DNA of 12,110 nt. Origin: Bacillota bacterium (GTDB lineage Bacteria; Bacillota; DTU025). The stretch spans positions 1-12,110 of the forward strand of contig DUWJ01000240.1 of the NCBI GenBank assembly GCA_012842765.1. The letters are read 5' to 3'. A program made the position numbers and the translations under genes. Below, one piece after another: positions 2,475-12,110 of this stretch (the first letter of the stretch is position 1; every line of letters starts with the position of its first letter). Under the pieces are notes generated by a model that was not told the origin of the DNA, ran no database searches, and was given only the letters and a program-made list of their open reading frames with translations.

Positions 2475-3572
2475 CTATTGTCCTGCTGTCCTTCCCCAGT
2501 CAGGGAAGACTACATTCCCAGTCCCTGTCATCTGGAAAAGTCCACCTCCGGAGTGAACCACGTACACGCCGTACCGCCCCGTGCCCTCTATTCGAGCTGA
2601 CACCGCCACCGCCCTGGAATCAGGGCTCCATGCCAAACCAGAGTATCTTGGATCGCTCACAACCTCCGCTTCGTGCCTGCAGCTGCCGTCTCGCGGATCG
2701 AGAATGATCACCTTTACGGCCTGACCGTTGTCTAAATTCCGCTGGCCGACGCAATAGGCGATCATCTTCCCATCTGGAGCCCAGGCAATCGACCAAGGCC
2801 ATACTTCCCGGTCAACTTTGCTTCTCACTGTTTCTCCGGTCAGGACGTCCACTATGCACATAACAACAGCTTCGTCTTCGCACGCAATGTAGGCCACACT
2901 TTCCCCGTAAGAAGCAGCCGCAAGCCCGCAAACCCGCTCCGGCGCATCGGTTAACAACACACCGCTTCCATCCGCCATTTCTCGCATGATTACATTACCG
3001 GAGTGTACATAGGCAATTCTGTAGCCGTCCCCAAGCCAAGAAGCGAACTGCCCTTCGAATGATTGCTTCATTGCTCCCGAATCGGCATCAACGACGTACA
3101 CGTGCGCATCAATCTCATACATTATGCTCTCGCCGCTCGGCGACCACCTCGGGGTGACCAGTCCCGCTAGGGGCTGAGTAATAGCCCGATCCAAGTCGGC
3201 GTGCACGTCAACAATATGGATCTTACCGTCCGCGCCTTGGATCGCCACAAGGCGGCCATCAGGCGAAAGCGCGGCAACCGAGGCCCAAGAGCACCCGACC
3301 GAAGCAAGCATCTTTGATGACCAGTCTTCGGCGTTGAAGATCAACAGCCCAGGGCCGCCATACCGGTCCGAAATGGCTGCAATAGATCCATCAAGTCCAT
3401 GGACAGCAGGAAGCACTAGCACGTCGCCTTCTGCAAGCATCTCTCCAGGGCTCAGCCAAGGGTTGAGCTCCAGCAACGCAGAGACCGAAACCCCGTAGCA
3501 GGCCGCAATTGCACCTACCTCCTGGTCCCCCGCGCAACAGTGTCTGGGGCTACGATACTCTCCTTCAGGCAT
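2475..3572 (-). CDS. LysM plus TolB/WD40-like beta-propeller protein
   Basis: This 365-residue protein has an N-terminal LysM-like module (about 4-56: GDQEVGAIAACYGVSVSALL, then LNPWLSPGEMLAEGDVLVLP). A beta-propeller follows (about 60-365), recognised by recurrent blade motifs: LSPDGRLVAI (102-111), WSPSGESIMY (143-152), WAPDGKMIAY (264-273), WSPDSRAVAV (315-324) and FPDWGR near the end. Six or seven blades are likely. I prefer ATG 3572 because GAGGTG (3579-3584) is 6 bases upstream. A TTG at 3665 would add 31 residues with a modest hydrophobic stretch but has a poor ribosome site. From ATG 3572 no signal peptide is visible. LysM proteins without a signal peptide occur among sporulation proteins such as SafA, so a spore or cytoplasmic role is possible; this is inference. 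It lies 115 bases after the importer operon on the same strand and may be co-transcribed. No enzyme motif was seen. Confidence 0.82.
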   Translation of the reverse strand: MPEGEYRSPRHCCAGDQEVGAIAACYGVSVSALLELNPWLSPGEMLAEGDVLVLPAVHGLDGSIAAISDRYGGPGLLIFNAEDWSSKMLASVGCSWASVAALSPDGRLVAIQGADGKIHIVDVHADLDRAITQPLAGLVTPRWSPSGESIMYEIDAHVYVVDADSGAMKQSFEGQFASWLGDGYRIAYVHSGNVIMREMADGSGVLLTDAPERVCGLAAASYGESVAYIACEDEAVVMCIVDVLTGETVRSKVDREVWPWSIAWAPDGKMIAYCVGQRNLDNGQAVKVIILDPRDGSCRHEAEVVSDPRYSGLAWSPDSRAVAVSARIEGTGRYGVYVVHSGGGLFQMTGTGNVVFPDWGRTAGQ

Positions 3573-3578
3573 AAAAAA

Positions 3579-3584
3579 CACCTC
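3579..3584 (-). promoter_or_regulatory. Ribosome binding site deciding the start of the LysM-propeller gene
   Basis: GAGGTG on the minus strand, separated from ATG 3572 by six T residues. It is a much better site than anything before the upstream TTG at 3665. Confidence 0.65.
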
Positions 3585-3687
3585 GCTTGCGACCGTCCCT
3601 CGAACCAAATATATGCCTATTGCACCAAGAAGGTGCTTAGACAGACCTGGTTCGAACAGTCCCAAGCGAGGCGCCTTATATCCGTAA

Positions 3688-4722
3688 CTAACGCTCTGCC
3701 CTATGGCACGCTACCTGATGAGTGCCTTCATGGAGCACCAACGGAGGCTCAACCTGTTTACATATGTCCATCGTATACGGACATCTAGGATGCAACCGAC
3801 ATCCTTGTGGCGGGTTCACGGGGCTCGGTATCTCGCCCTTCAGAACCTCTGCAAACCCGCGATGCCTCGGATCGGGCACGAACACCGCTCCGATCAGAGC
3901 CGTTGTGTAAGGATGCAAAGGAGTCTGGATGACTTCATCAGCCGTCCCCATTTCCACGATCTTGCCGAGGTACATCACGGCTATCCTATCGCATATATGC
4001 CGCGCAGTGGCAAGGTCATGGGTAATGTAGATAAACGTGACCCCTCTAGTCCGCGAAAGCCTTAGCATCAAGTTGAGCACTTCACCCCTGATCGATACGT
4101 CCAGCATCGAGACCGGCTCGTCTGCGACTATAAAATCAGGATCCACGCTCAACGCTCGTGCCACAGCAACCCTCTGGCGCTGTCCGCCGGAAAGCTCATG
4201 TGGATATCTTCCCATGTATTCCTCGGGCGGAACCATCTCCACATCAGCAAGGACAGATGCCACAACGTCGCGTGCATCGTGAGCCGATGAGGCAAGCCCC
4301 TGCAGAATCAGGGGTTCGGCTATAACCGTCTGAACGTCCATACGCGGGTTCATCGATTCATAAGGGTCCTGGAATATGATCTGCATCTTCCGACGCAGCT
4401 TCTTCATCTCCGCCTCGTTAAGATCGAAGATGTTCTGGCCTTCCAGAATCGCCTCACCGGATGTTGCATCAGTAAGCCTCAGAATCGTTCTGGCCAGGGT
4501 GGTTTTTCCACAACCCGATTCGCCCACCAAGCCCAAAACTTCGCCTTTGTACACATCAAGGCTTACCCCGTCCACCGCGCGCAATACCGGCTGTTCCTTT
4601 GTCTTCATCGACTGCCAGAACCCCATGCGGACAGGGAAGTGTTTGACGAGATCTCTTACCTGAAGTATGACCTCGCCATGCTCAACCACATTCGACTTCT
4701 GAGCCGTATTTACTGCGCCCAT
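3688..4722 (-). CDS. dppF: Dipeptide/oligopeptide ABC importer ATPase, DppF/OppF type
   Basis: This 344-residue cytoplasmic ATPase pairs with the DppD-like subunit to drive peptide import. Motifs in order are Walker A GESGCGKTT (67-75), Q-loop Gln118 in IIFQDP, signature LSGGQRQR (177-184), Walker B FIVADEP with Asp201/Glu202, D-loop SMLD and switch His235. All catalytic residues are present. The oligopeptide-type C-terminal region carries four cysteines (308, 314, 321, 339) in PQGCRLHPRCPYTMDICK and VACH. OppD/DppD-type proteins are known to place an Fe-S cluster with such a motif. ATG 4722 has a G-rich ribosome site and overlaps the end of the dppD-like gene by 13 bases, indicating translational coupling. 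It is the last permease-complex gene of the operon. The dpp versus opp name is by family only, since peptide length preference cannot be read here. Confidence 0.95.
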   Translation of the reverse strand: MGAVNTAQKSNVVEHGEVILQVRDLVKHFPVRMGFWQSMKTKEQPVLRAVDGVSLDVYKGEVLGLVGESGCGKTTLARTILRLTDATSGEAILEGQNIFDLNEAEMKKLRRKMQIIFQDPYESMNPRMDVQTVIAEPLILQGLASSAHDARDVVASVLADVEMVPPEEYMGRYPHELSGGQRQRVAVARALSVDPDFIVADEPVSMLDVSIRGEVLNLMLRLSRTRGVTFIYITHDLATARHICDRIAVMYLGKIVEMGTADEVIQTPLHPYTTALIGAVFVPDPRHRGFAEVLKGEIPSPVNPPQGCRLHPRCPYTMDICKQVEPPLVLHEGTHQVACHRAER

Positions 4723-5702
4723 ATGTCCACCCCCTGCTCAACGATTTCCGCTTTGTGGCAGGCAACATAGTGCTTCTTACGCGAAACCTCACGAAGGGGC
4801 GGTTCCACGGTCATGCACTCCTCGTCCGCAAGCGGGCACCGCGGATGGAACCTGCATCCAGTCGGCGGAGCAATCAGGTTGGGAGGGAAGCCAGGAAGCG
4901 ATCTCACCGGCGACCTCTCCGCATGGATGTTGGGGAATGATTTCACGAGCCCCATGGCATATGGGTGAGTTGGATTCACGTAAACATCCATGACGCTGCC
5001 GTACTCCGCAACTTTGCCGGCATACATGATAACGACAGAGTCGCAGGTCTGCGCAATCACCGACAGGTCGTGAGTGATCAACATCATGGAGAGGTTGAGT
5101 TCCTCTCTCAGTTCTCCGATAGCCTTCAGGATCTGCGCCTGAACCATCACGTCCAGCGCCGTTGTGGGCTCATCCGCGATAATGAGGTCAGGGTGACATG
5201 CAAGGGCCATGGCGATGACCGCCCGCTGCTTCATGCCCCCACTGAACTCGTGTGGATACTCCCCAAATCTGTTCGGGTTAATGCCAACAAGGTCGAACAG
5301 GTCTTTTGTCCGGCTCACAGCCTCTTCATGAGATACATCCTCATGTTCGAGGATAGCCTCGACGATCTGATCGCCGACCCTGTGGACTGGGTTCAGGGCA
5401 TTCATTGCGCCCTGAAATATCATTGATATCTGCTTCCATCGAACATCTTTGCGAAACTGCTCCTCAGGCATCTTCAGTATATCCTGCCCGTTCATAACCA
5501 CACTGCCGCCATGATACTCACCGTTCCTTGGCAACAGGCGGAGGATTGAGATCGCCATGCTCGATTTACCACACCCGGATTCCCCAGCGATTCCCACTGC
5601 CTTTCCACGCTCAATGTCAAAGCTTACGGAATCGACCGCCTTAACATGGCCCCTGAGGGTCCGGTAGTACATTTTCAGGTCTCTCACTTCAACCAGGGCC
5701 AT
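4710..5702 (-). CDS. dppD: Dipeptide/oligopeptide ABC importer ATPase, DppD/OppD type
   Basis: A 330-residue partner ATPase. It shows Walker A GESGCGKSS (40-48), Q-loop Gln97 in MIFQGAMNALNP, signature FSGGMKQR (153-160), Walker B LIIADEP with Asp177/Glu178, D-loop TALD and switch His211 in ITHDLSV. The C-terminal oligopeptide_HPY-type tail has four cysteines (283, 289, 296, 315) in PTGCRFHPRCPLADEECM and VACH, the arrangement that holds a [4Fe-4S] cluster in characterised OppD-type subunits. The FSGGMKQR signature and GAMNALNP are typical of the D rather than the F subunit. ATG 5702 starts 2 bases after the dppC-like stop and has a GGGAGAG site about 9 bases upstream. Length and active-site residues are normal, so the unusual parts of this system do not extend to the motor. 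Confidence 0.95.
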   Translation of the reverse strand: MALVEVRDLKMYYRTLRGHVKAVDSVSFDIERGKAVGIAGESGCGKSSMAISILRLLPRNGEYHGGSVVMNGQDILKMPEEQFRKDVRWKQISMIFQGAMNALNPVHRVGDQIVEAILEHEDVSHEEAVSRTKDLFDLVGINPNRFGEYPHEFSGGMKQRAVIAMALACHPDLIIADEPTTALDVMVQAQILKAIGELREELNLSMMLITHDLSVIAQTCDSVVIMYAGKVAEYGSVMDVYVNPTHPYAMGLVKSFPNIHAERSPVRSLPGFPPNLIAPPTGCRFHPRCPLADEECMTVEPPLREVSRKKHYVACHKAEIVEQGVDIWAQ

Positions 5703-5704
5703 TG

Positions 5705-7372
5705 TTACGATCTCTCCCTATACCGTGGATTGTAGATCTCGTTAACCGAGTTCCCGATAAACACAAACGCCAAGCTTAGAAGCGTAAGCGCTATACCGGG
5801 CGGGAGCAGCCACCACCAAGCCAGACGCGTAAAGGCACCAAACTGCTTGGCATTCTGCAGCATTCTTCCCCATGTAGGAACGCGCGGGTCTCCCAGGCCA
5901 AGGAAGCTCAATGAAGCCTCCGTGAGAATTGCTCCAGGTATCCTGAGGACCAGATTGGCAAAGATCAGCGGCATCACGTTCGGCAGTATGTGCTCGCGCA
6001 TGATGTAACCACCGGATGCCCCTGATGCCTTAGCCGCCTCTACAAACATCCGTTCCTTCAGCGACAGTGTCTGCGATCTCACCAGCCTTGCAATTCCCAT
6101 CCATGAGAAGATAGCAAGCAAGATGACTATGTTAAGGACACTCTTGCCAAATAGAGCGCCGAGAATAATCAGAACCGGCAAGTCGGGGATGGACATGAGC
6201 ACGTCCGCGATTCGCATGAGGACTTCATCCACCGCGCCCCCAAAATACCCCGCGCAAAGGCCCACACTAGTTCCTATCACAATCGCGATAAACGCGGATG
6301 ACAGACCAATTGCAAGCGCAATTCGCGTTCCATAGATCAGCTGCGACCAGAGGTCTGAACCCATATGGTCAACCCCGAGAATTCCATGAACCAAGCCGAG
6401 AATCTCAAATTTCACCGGGGTAACCATGAGTGTGACAGGACCCTCCTTCGAGTCCGTCCACGAGCTGAGCCTCAAGGTGTAAGTGCCCCTCTCAGAGAAG
6501 AGGATATCAGTTGGCTCGTCGAAGAAGCCCTGCCCCAGTCGCATCTTTAAATCATAGTCTCTCGCATCAACGAGGACCGTTCCTGACTCCACACTTCCGT
6601 AGACCCTTGCATCCCAAACATCGAAGACCTCTCCGTCCGGGGTCATCAGTTCCAGCATGATCACAGTTTCGGCACTGCTAGGCGCATCAACTGAGTAATC
6701 GAAACTGAACGAAAATGTCTGCGGAGGAGTATAGTCATAATCAACTTCATACGTCAAGAGCAGCTTTTTAGCGGATGCATCGATCCCTGAGTCAATCTCG
6801 GGTTCGAAGTCGAAACCATATTCATCCTCGGGCTCTGGCGAAGGCTCAGTCTCCTCGTTGCTTTCCAAAAGTCCCCAAGGATCCCAATCGGTAGCAGCCG
6901 AGGCCCAAAAGCCCTCCTCTTCTTCCCACGTATCTTCCTCGACGGTCTCTTCTACCTCCACCACATGAGTCTGCGGCAGGACTATCTCCATTCCAACCCC
7001 GTCAAAGTATGGAAACTCGTATGGGGAAATGGATATGTCATCCACCTCTTCGCGGACCCAATCATCCGGGCCGAGGTTCATGCGTATGGTCGGCGGAGCG
7101 TCCTTGAATTTTGCGCTCGTCTTGGCCATCCAAGCGGGTGCAGCCAGCCTATCAGCAAGATACAAATCTTCCATCGGATCGTAAGGCGCGATATACGGTG
7201 CGAAAAGCGCGATCAGAACGTATACGATAACTATGCCCAGACCCACCATACCCTGGGGCTTGCGTCTGTACTGTTCCCAAAAGGTAAGCGGCTTTGGAAC
7301 AGCAACGGTGGCGGCCTTAACAGCAGCAGCTCTTTCTTCACTTTTCGACCTCGGCTCAGTCTGCTGACTCAC
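5705..7372 (-). CDS. dppC: Peptide ABC importer permease, DppC/OppC type, with large extracytoplasmic insertion
   Basis: This 555-residue permease is nearly twice the usual length of about 280-300. The N-terminal part is normal for OppC: KPLTFWEQYRRKPQGM, TM1 (43-63), then LFAPYIAPYDP. The standard second part restarts at HGILGVDHMGSDLWSQLIYG (329-348), followed by about five membrane segments. The cytoplasmic ATPase-coupling loop has EAAKASGASGGYIMREHILP (445-464), and a conserved SLSFLGLGDPRVPTWG (488-503) follows. Between them, about 66-328 is extra. It has a very acidic part (24 Asp/Glu in 139-194, no Lys or Arg from 108 to 201) and then a likely beta-rich domain (about 203-320). OppC topology puts the insertion outside the cell membrane, on the receptor side. 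GTG 7372 overlaps the dppB-like stop by 4 bases (GTGA), with AGGTGG upstream. No frameshift or internal stop is present. Confidence 0.93.
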   Translation of the reverse strand: MSQQTEPRSKSEERAAAVKAATVAVPKPLTFWEQYRRKPQGMVGLGIVIVYVLIALFAPYIAPYDPMEDLYLADRLAAPAWMAKTSAKFKDAPPTIRMNLGPDDWVREEVDDISISPYEFPYFDGVGMEIVLPQTHVVEVEETVEEDTWEEEEGFWASAATDWDPWGLLESNEETEPSPEPEDEYGFDFEPEIDSGIDASAKKLLLTYEVDYDYTPPQTFSFSFDYSVDAPSSAETVIMLELMTPDGEVFDVWDARVYGSVESGTVLVDARDYDLKMRLGQGFFDEPTDILFSERGTYTLRLSSWTDSKEGPVTLMVTPVKFEILGLVHGILGVDHMGSDLWSQLIYGTRIALAIGLSSAFIAIVIGTSVGLCAGYFGGAVDEVLMRIADVLMSIPDLPVLIILGALFGKSVLNIVILLAIFSWMGIARLVRSQTLSLKERMFVEAAKASGASGGYIMREHILPNVMPLIFANLVLRIPGAILTEASLSFLGLGDPRVPTWGRMLQNAKQFGAFTRLAWWWLLPPGIALTLLSLAFVFIGNSVNEIYNPRYRERS

Positions 7373-8352
7373 TTTGCACCACCTGCCCCAACGCGGATCC
7401 TCGGATCAACAAGACCGTAGGCAATATCCGCCAGTAAATTGCTTATCACAACGGCCAAGGCTATAAGATAGAAAGCACCTTGCGCCGCCGGATAGTCCAT
7501 CTGAAGCGTAGCATCGAGAAGGTACCTTCCAACCCCATGCCATGAGAATATGCTTTCCGTGATAACAGCCCCTGACACCATCCCGGGCAAGGACATGAAA
7601 AGCAAGGTGACTATCGGCGGGAGAACGCTGCGCAACGCATGGTGATAAAGGACATCTTTCTCCGAAATCCCCTTGGCCCGCGCAGTTATGATGTAGTCCT
7701 GCCCAAGCGCTTCGGTCATTGTGTTCCTAGCATACAGAGCCCATGAACCAAACCCCACAATCATGTTGCTCGTTACCGGGAGTACCAGGTGCCATAGCCT
7801 GTCAAGGAAGATATTCCATCCTCCAGCCGGAGGAGGCGCGCTCATAGTGCCGTGTATGGGCAATATGGGCCAATAGTAACCGAATAGGAGAAGCATGAGC
7901 AACTGGATGAAAAATGTAGGCACTGCATGAGTAAAGAGACCTGCCGTTATCACGACTCGATCCGTAAACGAGCCTGGATTTGCAGCGGCCTTCACTCCCA
8001 AGCGCATCCCCGTCAGTGATGTGAGGATGAATGTGCAAAGGAACAGCTTGATCGTATTGGGAAGCCTTTCCTTGAGTTCCGACCAGACTGGCCGTCTCGT
8101 CGAAAAAGAAAGGCCCATATCAAATTTGAGCAGATTCCCCATATAGGTAACGTACTGCTTTAATGGGGGATCATCTAGGCCGTACTGACTCCTCAATTCA
8201 GCCTTCGCTTCCGGTGTGAAATTGGGATCAATGATCATCTTAGTCGGGTCACCCGGCATCACACGGAAGAGGACGAAGTTGAGGGTGAGTATGACGTATA
8301 GGACTATTAAGGCATAGACCAATCGCTTGATGACATACGAACGAAAACCCAA
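7369..8352 (-). CDS. dppB: Peptide ABC importer permease, DppB/OppB type
   Basis: This 327-residue inner-membrane permease forms the channel with the DppC-like subunit. It begins with the family pattern YVIKRLVYALIVLYVILT and FRVMPGDP, has the extracytoplasmic LRSQYGLDDPPLKQYVTYM segment (53-71) and GLSFSTRRPV, and carries six predicted membrane segments. The EAA coupling loop is at about 223-247 (ARAKGISEKDVLYHHALRSV), followed by the conserved ITESIFSWHGVGRYLLDA (264-281). Length and motifs are ordinary, in contrast to its partner. The start is TTG 8352, with GAGGTGA about 8 bases upstream; no ATG fits the conserved N-terminus. It lies 89 bases after the SBP1 stop, with a stable hairpin in between, and overlaps the next gene by 4 bases. 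Confidence 0.95.
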   Translation of the reverse strand: MGFRSYVIKRLVYALIVLYVILTLNFVLFRVMPGDPTKMIIDPNFTPEAKAELRSQYGLDDPPLKQYVTYMGNLLKFDMGLSFSTRRPVWSELKERLPNTIKLFLCTFILTSLTGMRLGVKAAANPGSFTDRVVITAGLFTHAVPTFFIQLLMLLLFGYYWPILPIHGTMSAPPPAGGWNIFLDRLWHLVLPVTSNMIVGFGSWALYARNTMTEALGQDYIITARAKGISEKDVLYHHALRSVLPPIVTLLFMSLPGMVSGAVITESIFSWHGVGRYLLDATLQMDYPAAQGAFYLIALAVVISNLLADIAYGLVDPRIRVGAGGAK

Positions 8353-8387
8353 ATCCGTCTCACCTCATTCTGCCTTATCACCGGCTA

Positions 8388-8420
8388 TGCCGCCCCAGGC
8401 CCCAATGGCCCGGGGCGGCA
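8388..8420 (-). promoter_or_regulatory. Stable hairpin between the SBP1 and dppB-like genes
   Basis: TGCCGCCCC (8388-8396) pairs with GGGGCGGCA (8412-8420). After an A/C mismatch the stem continues with GGCC/GGCC around a CCAAT loop. On the minus strand no T-run follows (the T-run lies before it), so it probably does not fully stop transcription. A position between the binding-protein and permease genes fits an mRNA-stabilising or partial-attenuation element that raises binding-protein levels, as known for other importer operons. The function here is inference. Confidence 0.65.
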
Positions 8421-8441
8421 AAAAGCCAGATCATTTAGGCC

Positions 8442-10148
8442 CTACTTCTTCAGACGCCAGTAGTTCGGGTTCTTAACGAGCCTTACATATTCGCCGGGCA
8501 CGTATTCCTTAAGAATGAAGGGTCCCGTTCCAACAAGTTTGGAGTAACCCTTAATCTTCGGGTGCGGCTCCTTCCAAGGCTCGAAGCCCTTCCAGTCCTT
8601 TACATCCTTCCAGATGTGCTTAGGCAGGAAGGACAGGTCTGCACTGTAGATGTGCCAGTAGCTGACGTTGGCGAAGTAGACCTTGACCGTGTATTTGTCG
8701 AGCAGCTCAACCTTGACGATGTCCTGCGTCGCAGGGAGATACCTCGGAACCTTATTCGCTTTGAGGTAGTTGATGGTGAATTCTACATCCTCAGCGGTGA
8801 ACGGCATTCCGTCAGACCACTTGATCCCCTTCTCGATATACCAGGTCACCGTGGTGCCCTTCTTGCCGGGCTGCGGCTCCCATACGCCAACGTCCCACTT
8901 GCGGGCCATCCATGGCATATCATCGAGAGTGTCAGGATGCATTGCCATCAGGCTGTCATTCAACCTTGAGAGCACTTCCTGCTCGTAGGCGCTTGACGCG
9001 ACACACGGGTTGAGGTTCTTCGGCTCCTCTGAAAGCGCCCACCTGATGGTTCCGCCTTCAATGGGCCTGCCTGAACGGTCCACCCTACGTATGTTCAAGG
9101 TGGTCCACAGGTTGTTGTAGCTAGCTGCGCCGAAGCCCTTCATGGGCACGTATCCTGTTACCAGGTCCTTGCGGAACGCATCGATGTACGGCCTCGAGTA
9201 GAGCGGCACGTACGGCATCTCTCTGGCAAGGATCATCTGGCAGGCGTCTGACGCCGCTTTGGCCTCTTTCAAGTTAGACGCGTACCTGAGAAGCTCAGAC
9301 TGTTTGTCGTACTCAGGATTACGCATTCCCGGGTTATTGTAGCCAGCTTCGACGTCCTGTGACGAATGGAAGAAGTCATACAGGAAGTCTGGGTTCCTGC
9401 TGAGCGACCATGCCAGGACATACATGTCAAAATCGCGAATATCGATCTTGTCGAGCATGACTGGGAAGTCCATTGGCTCTGGCACCACAGGCAGACCAAC
9501 CTTCTGGCAGGAATCAGCGATCATCTTGCCGAGTTCCGCGGAGGTCGCGGCTACCTCGTAGGTAGGCGTGAAGATCTTCATCTGGGCAAGCGGTTTGCCC
9601 GTCTTCGGATCGATCCTCACCTTGGTCACAGGATCCAGCTTGTATCCGGCCTTATCCAAAACCTCAGCAGCCTTAGCATAGCTGAATGGATAGACAGGAA
9701 CATCGGCCTTATAGAAAGGCGACACCTGTGGCACAAAACTCGTCATCGGAAGCATATAGCCCTTGAAGAGCGTGCGAATGATGTTATCGCGATCGACACA
9801 GTGTGCAATCGCCTGGCGGATCGGTTGAGAAGCCAACGGCTCCTTCCTCATGTTAAAGCAAAGGTAGAACATGTGGAAACCAAGAGTCATCGTCATGTCG
9901 GAGTTAGGCATGGCCTTAGCCCTGTCGATATCCTCAGGCTGAGTGAGGCCAGACCAGACGACGCTTTCACCACGCTCATATGCGATTCTTCTGGCTTGCT
10001 GCTCCTTTATGATCGGCATAATGATCTCGTCGACGTGCGGACCAGTGGTCTCGAACGCCATCTTCGCGGCGCCGGGCGCGCCGGCGATGCCGAGAGCAAG
10101 CACGAGCGCCAAGACTACGGCAATCGGCAAGCGAACTTTTTTCGGCAT
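8442..10148 (-). CDS. Peptide-binding protein (SBP_bac_5 family) with circularly permuted halves, SBP1
   Basis: A 568-residue exported peptide-binding protein for the adjacent importer. The signal peptide (about 1-28, KKVR then a hydrophobic core, APGAA) has no lipobox cysteine. The order of fold segments is unusual. Residues 37-350 match what is normally the second half: VDEIIMPII, YLCFNM, RQAIAHCVDRDNIIRTLF, YAKAAEVLDKAGY, LAWSLSRNPDFLYDFFHSSQ, MPYVPLYSRPYIDAFRKDLV. A short linker IRRVDRSGRPIE (353-364) leads to what is normally the first half: GGTIRWALSEEPKNLNP (365-381), KGIKWSDGMPFTAEDVEFT (440-458), GTGPFILKEYVPGEYVRLVK (540-559), ending NPNYWRLKK. Each half appears once and complete, so this is a permutation rather than a fusion. 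ATG 10148 is set by AAGGAGGT 9 bases upstream; an earlier in-frame start at 10205 adds 19 non-signal residues. The motif assignment is read by eye. Confidence 0.9.
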   Translation of the reverse strand: MPKKVRLPIAVVLALVLALGIAGAPGAAKMAFETTGPHVDEIIMPIIKEQQARRIAYERGESVVWSGLTQPEDIDRAKAMPNSDMTMTLGFHMFYLCFNMRKEPLASQPIRQAIAHCVDRDNIIRTLFKGYMLPMTSFVPQVSPFYKADVPVYPFSYAKAAEVLDKAGYKLDPVTKVRIDPKTGKPLAQMKIFTPTYEVAATSAELGKMIADSCQKVGLPVVPEPMDFPVMLDKIDIRDFDMYVLAWSLSRNPDFLYDFFHSSQDVEAGYNNPGMRNPEYDKQSELLRYASNLKEAKAASDACQMILAREMPYVPLYSRPYIDAFRKDLVTGYVPMKGFGAASYNNLWTTLNIRRVDRSGRPIEGGTIRWALSEEPKNLNPCVASSAYEQEVLSRLNDSLMAMHPDTLDDMPWMARKWDVGVWEPQPGKKGTTVTWYIEKGIKWSDGMPFTAEDVEFTINYLKANKVPRYLPATQDIVKVELLDKYTVKVYFANVSYWHIYSADLSFLPKHIWKDVKDWKGFEPWKEPHPKIKGYSKLVGTGPFILKEYVPGEYVRLVKNPNYWRLKK

Positions 10149-10157
10149 TAAGTACGT

Positions 10158-10165
10158 ACCTCCTT
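10158..10165 (-). promoter_or_regulatory. Consensus ribosome binding site of SBP1
   Basis: AAGGAGGT on the minus strand, 9 bases before ATG 10148. It fixes the start at MPKKVRLPIAVV, directly at the signal peptide, and predicts high translation as expected for a binding protein. Confidence 0.85.
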
Positions 10166-10568: not shown

Positions 10569-12110
10569 CTACTTGCTCGGAGGGTTGAGACGCCAGTAGT
10601 TCGGGTTCTTTACGAGCCTCACGTATTCGCCAGGCCTATACTCCTTGAGGATGTATGGACCATGTCCAACCAGCTTAGAGTAACCCTTGATCTTTGGGTG
10701 AGGTTCCTTCCAAGGTTCGAATGTCTTCCAGTCCTTTACATCCTGCCATATGTGCTTCGGCAGGAATTCGGCGACACGATATAGGTGCCAGTAACTTACG
10801 TTTTGGTAGTAGATCTTAACAGTGTATCTGTCGATCAGCTCGACCTTCACAACATCATCAGTAGTGGGCTTGTACCTCGGCACCTGGTTTGCCTTGAGGT
10901 AATCCATAGTGAACTTGACATCCTCAGCGGTGAACGGTTGGCCGTCGGACCACTTTATGCCCTTATTGATGTACCAAGTTACAACTGTGCCCTTCTTACC
11001 AGGCTCAGGCTCCCAGACTCCAACATCCCACTTGCGAGCCATCCACGGCATGTCATCCAGGGTATCCGGATCCATCGCCTGGAGACCGTCATAGATCCTG
11101 GAAAGAACCTCCCATTCGTAGGCGCTGCTGGCGACGCAGGGGTTGAGGTTCTTCGGCTCCTCATCCAACGTCCACCTGATAGTGCCGCCCTCGATCGGCC
11201 TGCCGGACCGGTCAACACGGCGGATATTCAGTGTTGTCCACATATTGTTGTAGCTCGCGGCGCCATAGCCCTTCATCGGAACGTATCCGGTAACGAGGTC
11301 CTTCCTAAAAGCGTCAATGAAAGGCCTCGAATACAGCGGCACGTACGGCATCTCCCTGGCGAGAATAAGCTGAGCCTTGTCTGATGCAGTCTTAGCCGTC
11401 TTGAGATCTGGGGCATAGTTTAGATCCTCAAGAAGCTTATCTAGCTCGGGATCGCGAATACCAGGCCTGTTGTAGCCGGCCTCGACGTCCTGCGACGAAT
11501 GGAAGAAGCTGTATAGGCTTGTTGGGTTCCTGCTAAGGTTCCAGGCCAGGCAGTACATGTCGAATTCCATTATGTCAAGTTTATCGAGCATGACTGGGAA
11601 GTCCATCGGCTCGGGCACGACGGGAAGGCCAACCTTCTGGCATGAATCGGCAATCATTTTGCCAAGTTCCGCAGAGGTCGGAGCAACCTCGTACGTAGGC
11701 GTGAAGATCTTCAATTCACGCATGGGTTTCCCCGTCTTGGGATCGATTCTCTTCTTAGTGGCCGGATCGAGCTTGTAGCCGGCCTTGTCGAGAACCTCCG
11801 CAGCCTTTGCATGACTGAATGGATAGACAGGCACGTCAGCCTTATAGAAAGGCGACACCTGTGGAATGAAACTCGTCATAGGAAGCATATAGCCCTTGAA
11901 GAGCGTGCGGATTATGTTGTCGCGGTCGGTGCAGTGTGCAATAGCCTGACGTACAGCTTGGTCGGCCAATGGGTATTCCCTCATGTTGAAGCAAAGGTAG
12001 AACATGTGAAAACCAAGAGTCATAGTCATGTCAGCATTGGGGATGACCTTCGCCCTATCGATATCCTCAGGCTTGGTAAGGCCAGCCCACACAACACTTT
12101 CGCCGCGCTC
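10569..12110 (-). CDS. Peptide-binding protein with circularly permuted halves, SBP2 (5' end outside window)
   Basis: The last 513 codons of a second exported peptide-binding protein, a close paralogue of SBP1. The frame is open to the window edge, where the first visible residues ERGESVVWAGLT align with SBP1 residues 58-69. By that alignment about 57 codons are missing, and the start should lie near 12281. It has the same swapped order: VVPEPMDFPVMLDKLDI, FHSSQDVEAGYNRPG and VPLYSRPFIDAFRKDLV first; the identical linker RRVDRSGRPIEGGTIRW (about 11182-11226); then SDGQPFTAEDVKFT and VKNPNYWRLNPPSK at the end. Over SBP1 residues 58-186 I count 15 differences in 129 positions by hand. Divergence is greater elsewhere, for example near LLEDLNYAPDLKTAKTA and in the HLYRVAEFLPK segment. 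It is separated from SBP1 by a hairpin and the 420-base spacer. Different peptide preferences of the two are plausible but not shown. Confidence 0.9.
   Translation of the reverse strand, partial: ERGESVVWAGLTKPEDIDRAKVIPNADMTMTLGFHMFYLCFNMREYPLADQAVRQAIAHCTDRDNIIRTLFKGYMLPMTSFIPQVSPFYKADVPVYPFSHAKAAEVLDKAGYKLDPATKKRIDPKTGKPMRELKIFTPTYEVAPTSAELGKMIADSCQKVGLPVVPEPMDFPVMLDKLDIMEFDMYCLAWNLSRNPTSLYSFFHSSQDVEAGYNRPGIRDPELDKLLEDLNYAPDLKTAKTASDKAQLILAREMPYVPLYSRPFIDAFRKDLVTGYVPMKGYGAASYNNMWTTLNIRRVDRSGRPIEGGTIRWTLDEEPKNLNPCVASSAYEWEVLSRIYDGLQAMDPDTLDDMPWMARKWDVGVWEPEPGKKGTVVTWYINKGIKWSDGQPFTAEDVKFTMDYLKANQVPRYKPTTDDVVKVELIDRYTVKIYYQNVSYWHLYRVAEFLPKHIWQDVKDWKTFEPWKEPHPKIKGYSKLVGHGPYILKEYRPGEYVRLVKNPNYWRLNPPSK

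Follow-up and report, generated by a model that had tools for sequence, protein, structure and literature searches.

A predicted circularly permuted receptor of the SBP_bac_5 family in an Opp-type importer operon of a Bacillota bacterium

Introduction

Can the two halves of a substrate-binding protein exchange places in the chain and still make a working receptor? The question is raised by a gene in a stretch of 12,110 nucleotides from a Bacillota bacterium (contig DUWJ01000240.1 of assembly GCA_012842765.1), called the window in what follows. Its product, SBP1, belongs to SBP_bac_5, a large microbial receptor family in which a GPHVDEII-type segment ordinarily comes after the NPDYW motif. A first-pass annotation, made from the letters alone, had found these parts in the opposite order and proposed a true circular permutation.

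Circular permutation is known in substrate-binding proteins. TpMglB-2 (Tp0684) of Treponema pallidum is a natural circular permutant of 'Type Ic / Cluster Bc', a type also found in treponemes and Gram-positive bacteria (PMC4990184). It shares with SBP1 the natural permutation of a substrate-binding protein, but it is a Type I / cluster B glucose receptor of another fold class, in which a smaller part of the chain was moved and a fourth hinge crossing arose, whereas SBP1 is of cluster C and about half of its chain is displaced (PMC4990184). SBP1 is not a Type Ic / Cluster Bc protein, PF00496 being its sole profile match at E <= 0.001. For SBP_bac_5, no description of a permuted protein was found among the matches listed by title in the open-access literature; subscription papers could hold one.

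Results

Gene structure and order of the halves

SBP1 is encoded on the minus strand (8442..10148) by a single open frame of 568 aa with an ATG at 10148 and a stop at 8444-8442, in agreement with the frame, start and strand first annotated. A Shine-Dalgarno-like AAGGAGG, read by eye, precedes the ATG (10159..10165, minus strand). Residues 1-29 (10062..10148, minus strand) form a signal-peptide region; its class was assigned by eye, AlphaFold2 placed a helix at residues 6-21 with low pLDDT over 17-29, and no lipobox cysteine was seen by eye within these residues. The signal-peptide-like segment runs directly into GPHVDEII. By segment limits that we set ourselves, the canonical C-terminal half (C1 and C2, residues 34-354; 9087..10049, minus strand) now comes first. 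It is followed by a linker of seven residues from the old C terminus to the old N terminus (9066..9086, minus strand) and then by the canonical N-terminal half (N, residues 362-568; 8445..9065, minus strand), which begins at GGTIRW and ends with NPNYWRLKK. Reading through the protein located the motifs where the annotation had put them.

Comparison with the family profile gave the same order. The whole protein matched PF00496 with an E-value of 1.6e-69 and 235.2 bits (curated cut-off 32.4), and the match was not collinear from N to C terminus: profile positions 146-365 aligned at genome positions 10040-9357 and positions 4-145 followed at 8915-8445. These are the two out-of-order partial matches, the C-terminal part of the model first, that the annotation had named as support for a permutation. 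Every part is present once, cyclically shifted, in one frame. Five of the ten NCBIfam receptor models that match SBP1 likewise reported two stretches, and the best stretch lay in the first half of SBP1 for NikA, SapA and TIGR04028 and in the second half for Opp4A and CntA. When the PDB was searched with the sequence, the best stretch fell inside one half in all 60 of the best 60 of 94 matches, and the search with a profile gave the same result (60/60, best 60 of 115). In the three printed alignments of the sequence search both halves of SBP1 matched in swapped order. The swapped order of the halves in SBP1 is thereby confirmed.

Other receptors of the same genome

Upstream of SBP1 lies a tandem paralogue, SBP2 (10569..12110, minus strand), for which PF00496 and a contig overlap gave the same permuted order. 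Its 5' end is on contig C208, which overlaps the SBP2 contig by 141 exact bases and carries the SBP2 signal peptide followed by the C half. Canonical PF00496 receptors, with one Pfam stretch each, are encoded on contigs C191, C365 and C185, and the receptor of C187 (G000:C187; L002:1504-3066, minus strand) was confirmed to have the order C2-N-C1. The genome thus holds all three cyclic orders of PF00496, with C1-C2-N present twice.

Predicted fold

AlphaFold2 predicted one fold for SBP1, with a pLDDT of 93.6 and a pTM of 0.87. Foldseek matches to the model covered 290-342 columns with TM scores of 0.41-0.47 by query length (best 50 matches), and the structure aligners fitted about half of the model, its N half apart, to solved receptors. 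AppA of Bacillus subtilis (1xoc) was the best match by both sequence and fold among the matches listed. PDB searches by sequence and fold returned, among the matches listed, no solved structure in the C1-C2-N order.

Relatives in the C1-C2-N order

Homologues were collected by three word-based searches, one of a set of 5.8 billion proteins, from which the best 120 of 359 matches were taken, and two further ones, from which the best 120 of 3108 and of 662 were taken. The resulting 345 proteins, SBP1 included, were each cut into the segments N, C1 and C2. The canonical order N-C1-C2 was found in 153 of them, C1-C2-N in 135 and C2-N-C1 in 53, with only two segments present in the remaining 4; the collection is biased by the queries, so these counts are not frequencies. 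The C1-C2-N order had already been found in 104 of the first 239 proteins collected, and the search for homologues of like order that the first-pass annotation had suggested thus produced many. Among the matches listed, the C1-C2-N relatives of SBP1, some of them fragments, ranged from 92% down to 32% identity, and in most more than 90% of the length was matched. At the old ends, matched segments were separated by a median of 5 residues (range 0-36, n = 135).

Of 398 Bacillota genomes, 26 were found to encode a receptor of the window type, with up to three copies per genome; they comprise the source genome, two members of its genus (G249 and G297) and 23 further genomes of the phylum at E <= 1e-80. 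Window-type genes stand in tandem in the source genome (G000), G249 and G297. The named members of this order in the first homologue search and the locus set come from metagenome or uncultured assemblies, and three named archaeal proteins also have it (P0105, P0242 and P0259). Judged by these sequences, the C1-C2-N receptors are an established family that extends beyond one odd gene. Since both archaea and the phylum of the window have proteins in this order, it is old.

We considered whether the permuted receptors have lost the lipid anchor. Among proteins in which the first segment starts at residue 15 or later, 8 of 98 window-type proteins of the series P0001-P0103 and none of 33 others of that type had a crude lipobox pattern, compared with 30 of 147 canonical and 4 of 49 C2-N-C1 proteins; the pattern is too crude for such a claim, which was dropped. 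A separate observation concerns a C-half fragment (L022, about 6151-6729; G148:C97:24038-24454, probably the same contig), which immediately precedes a full permuted receptor gene that has no permease genes adjoining it.

A second permutation, C2-N-C1

In P0112 the chain is cut in a different loop, between C1 and C2. Its last residues read by eye like a translated sequencing adapter; the 3' end is therefore probably a contig artefact, and longer relatives exist. The few named relatives of P0112 in this order are archaeal (P0126 of Korarchaeota and P0192 of Hodarchaeota). The order also occurs in the archaeon Halalkalicoccus jeotgali (WP_238532955.1), in the cultured Alphaproteobacteria Roseomonas marmotae (WP_237182973.1) and Nitratireductor (WP_113156578.1), and in P0329. 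These are SBP_bac_5 proteins with PF00496, circularly permuted like SBP1 but cut at the other site. The order is present in the phylum of the window as well. In the source genome and 20 relatives, nine candidates were picked by their profile coordinates. Besides the C187 protein, seven of the eight others that were fetched were confirmed, one of them in the one-contig 2.8 Mb genome G008; the candidate of G009 was not confirmed.

The change of order can separate close relatives. The C2-N-C1 protein P0161 shares 82, 77 and 85% identity with the canonical P0167 over N, C1 and C2; the signal-peptide regions of the two are also related (52%), and their C-terminal anchor regions are 61% identical. 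Some changes of order could be only apparent, produced by gene conversion between paralogues; the similar identity over the three segments argues against piecemeal exchange in this pair. More broadly, P0161, P0164 and P0166 are about 80% identical per segment to P0167 and P0189, which differ from them in order.

History of the orders

In a tree of 66 re-ordered proteins, 20 of the 21 C1-C2-N proteins formed one clade (bootstrap 96, SH-aLRT 88), with P0106 apart, and an AU test did not reject a single clade of all 21 (p 0.395). Supported branches forced one change to this order in two trees, including that of the 66 proteins, and two changes in two others, which were quick trees with the archaeal P0104 group apart. 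A single origin of C1-C2-N is therefore uncertain. For C2-N-C1, one clade was rejected (p 3.5e-7), and supported branches forced at least four changes in the 66-protein tree and 3, 3 and 4 in three other trees.

The importer operon

SBP1 is followed on the minus strand by genes for an OppB-type permease (7369..8352), assigned with Pfam and NCBIfam profiles, an OppC-type permease (5705..7372), and OppD-type (4710..5702) and OppF-type (3688..4722) ATPases, both assigned by profile match, giving the order SBP-OppB-OppC-OppD-OppF. Between SBP1 and OppB a strong RNA hairpin is predicted (8353..8441, minus strand; MFE -49 kcal/mol, z -5.74). No U-run was seen after it and the terminator listing was empty there; the hairpin perhaps sets an excess of receptor over permease.

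The arrangement recurs elsewhere. Among 13 genome loci, 12 have OppB after the receptor; seven show the full set and five end at the locus limits, while the receptor of L022 stands without the OppB-OppC-OppD-OppF set; in 12 regions of other genomes the set is full in eight and partial in L089, L090 and L091, and the receptor of L093 is without it. These locus counts are not independent, since L022 and L093 are apparently one contig of 34,528 bases and the two locus sets overlap. No non-importer gene that could hint at the ligand was widely common in the 12 regions.

The gene after OppF (2475-3665, minus strand) has weak beta-propeller matches and, by eye, a LysM-like start, and relatives of it adjoin OppF in four other regions (L085-L088). 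A canonical receptor and an OppC lie upstream of the permuted operon in G249:C70, G148:C102 (L086) and G225:C160. In L086 this is a full canonical-receptor operon, whose receptor groups with the canonical P0108-P0114 in a quick tree.

The nearest curated models by E-value, for the receptor and both permeases, are those of Opp4-type importers (NF045467, NF045472 and NF045476), but the scores are far below the cut-offs (126.5 of 650, 254.8 of 450 and 237 of 350 bits). SBP1 is accordingly not an Opp4A equivalog, matching NF045467 in two stretches, and the OppC differs from that of Opp4-type importers by an extra domain.

An inserted domain in OppC

Where the gene is whole or almost whole (ten loci), the OppC of the permuted-receptor operon measures 444-555 aa, as against 303, 306, 312 and 332 aa for the other four OppC frames of the source genome. 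The additional residues come after the first transmembrane segment and before the permease domain; in the OppC of the window they stand between OppC_N and BPD_transp_1 (residues about 80-330). The insert (6386-7144, minus strand) consists of an acidic stretch and a predicted beta-sandwich and matches no Pfam family; its conserved core has 118 aa (6410..6763, minus strand). In the usual OppC topology the region after the first transmembrane segment is outside the membrane, and the beta-domain is presumably extracytoplasmic.

With a 118-column model of the core, the insert was found in 26 of the 398 Bacillota genomes searched for the receptor. Receptor and insert occur together in 25 genomes (Fisher p 2.3e-37, the rows not being independent), in 24 of these on the same contig and strand with the insert 1412-1705 nt after the SBP gene. 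In G249 and G319, which have one of the pair only, the missing gene would by estimate lie off the contig. Such co-occurrence is no test of the function of the insert, because an operon is passed on as a unit.

The insert was rejected as a general marker of permutation: the OppC beside C2-N-C1 receptors is of ordinary length in two isolates (314 and 308 aa) and at the C187 locus of the source genome (312 aa). Several further long OppC frames (379-474 aa) were found in 21 genomes, one of them, of 410 aa, near a canonical receptor (G148:C74), and two OppC matches lie in frames of 638 and 628 aa (G009:C18:92161-92853 and G008:C1:1769050-1769871). In Nitratireductor, the OppC beside the C2-N-C1 receptor (L095:7613-9286) carries an unlike insert of about 290 aa in the same place, which is repeat-like and, by eye, propeller-like. 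Neorhizobium (L096:6995-8590 and 4932-6585) has OppB- and OppC-type domains in one protein of 531 aa, and the adjoining receptor is annotated as two frames.

Discussion

Taking sequence and predicted structure together, SBP1 and SBP2 can be regarded as genuine circular permutants of the cluster-C / SBP_bac_5 fold, and the first-pass reading of SBP1 as a true permutation is supported by the PF00496 order, by SBP2 and by the homologues. With the known cluster C / Type II receptors of this family (AppA 1xoc, DppA, NikA, NikZ) SBP1 shares PF00496, the predicted fold, the OppBCDF operon and several sequence motifs, but its halves are reversed and each aligns with them separately. In our judgment SBP1 is very probably a working receptor in permuted form. 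A short linker connects the old C terminus with the old N terminus, and the chain is opened in the NPNYW/VDEII loop. Since so short a linker can bridge the old ends and the new ends are presumably in a loop at the surface, the same receptor is expected, and a single compact unit is predicted. Such a protein, once secreted, would bind a solute outside the membrane, dock on OppB-OppC and deliver the solute to the adjacent OppB-OppC-OppD-OppF importer; the predicted single fold suggests that it should be able to do so. The ligand may be peptide-like, a guess by analogy with the best match AppA, which was solved with a nonapeptide.

Could the permutation be only apparent? Chance and gene-boundary errors are excluded as the source of the order by SBP2, which gave the same picture, and by the many proteins that have it. 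In one contig of a 482-contig assembly one might suspect a chimera, misplaced gene ends or gene decay, but the order recurs in G249, G297 and 23 other genomes of the phylum, the Shine-Dalgarno-like site and signal peptide are in place, and the related C2-N-C1 order occurs in the one-contig genome G008 and in named isolates, so that the probability left to such an artefact is negligible. It is highly improbable, too, that the halves pair between chains in a segment-swapped dimer or higher assembly. A permuted chain could exchange halves, and no solved structure in this order was among the PDB matches listed, but the single-chain prediction is confident and the gap at the old ends is short throughout the 135 proteins.

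With SBP1 taken as a permuted receptor, the OppC beta-domain might be a partner that compensates for the permutation by docking or retention. The near-complete coincidence of receptor and insert, with the two exceptions apparently explained by contig ends, and the ordinary length of the other OppC frames of the genome speak for this idea, which we nevertheless consider unlikely: operon genes are co-inherited, C2-N-C1 receptors adjoin OppC proteins of ordinary length, and a long OppC also stands near a canonical receptor. Less unlikely, although still doubtful, is that the order arose when half genes split and fused again, or when tandem paralogues recombined, instead of by whole-gene duplication, fusion and trimming. 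The tandem window-type genes, the canonical receptor and OppC that by coordinates precede the permuted operon on its contig in G249, G148 and G225, and the C-half fragment of G148:C97, a frame of 207 aa just upstream of the permuted gene, point that way, but neither half-gene pairs nor an N-C-N-C intermediate occur among the 345 proteins. The lack of fusion intermediates in this set (0 of 345) carries little weight, as the set was drawn from the best 120 matches of each of three word-based searches.

Whichever route produced them, the permuted receptors suggest a broader view of the family. We consider it somewhat more probable than its opposite that the SBP_bac_5 fold is permutation-prone and has repeatedly been re-cut at two loops to give all three cyclic orders, with changes recent enough to separate proteins about 80% identical, some possibly reversions, and with the second type of cut shifting the lipid or membrane tether between lobes while the importer still works. 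We take the cut of the window type to lie in lobe I, the lobe of the old ends in OppA and DppA, so that little movement of the tether would result; for C2-N-C1 we assume a cut in the other lobe, which would make the tether change lobes.

Members of SBP_bac_5 are annotated with collinear models, and those of the permuted branches that have a name at all bear that of an ordinary receptor. The cut sites that nature has permitted in this fold would be of direct use to biosensor engineers. The pair P0161 and P0167 comes close to a natural controlled experiment, and natural permutants of this kind may serve to probe the role of chain order in folding, export, hinge closing and docking on the permease.
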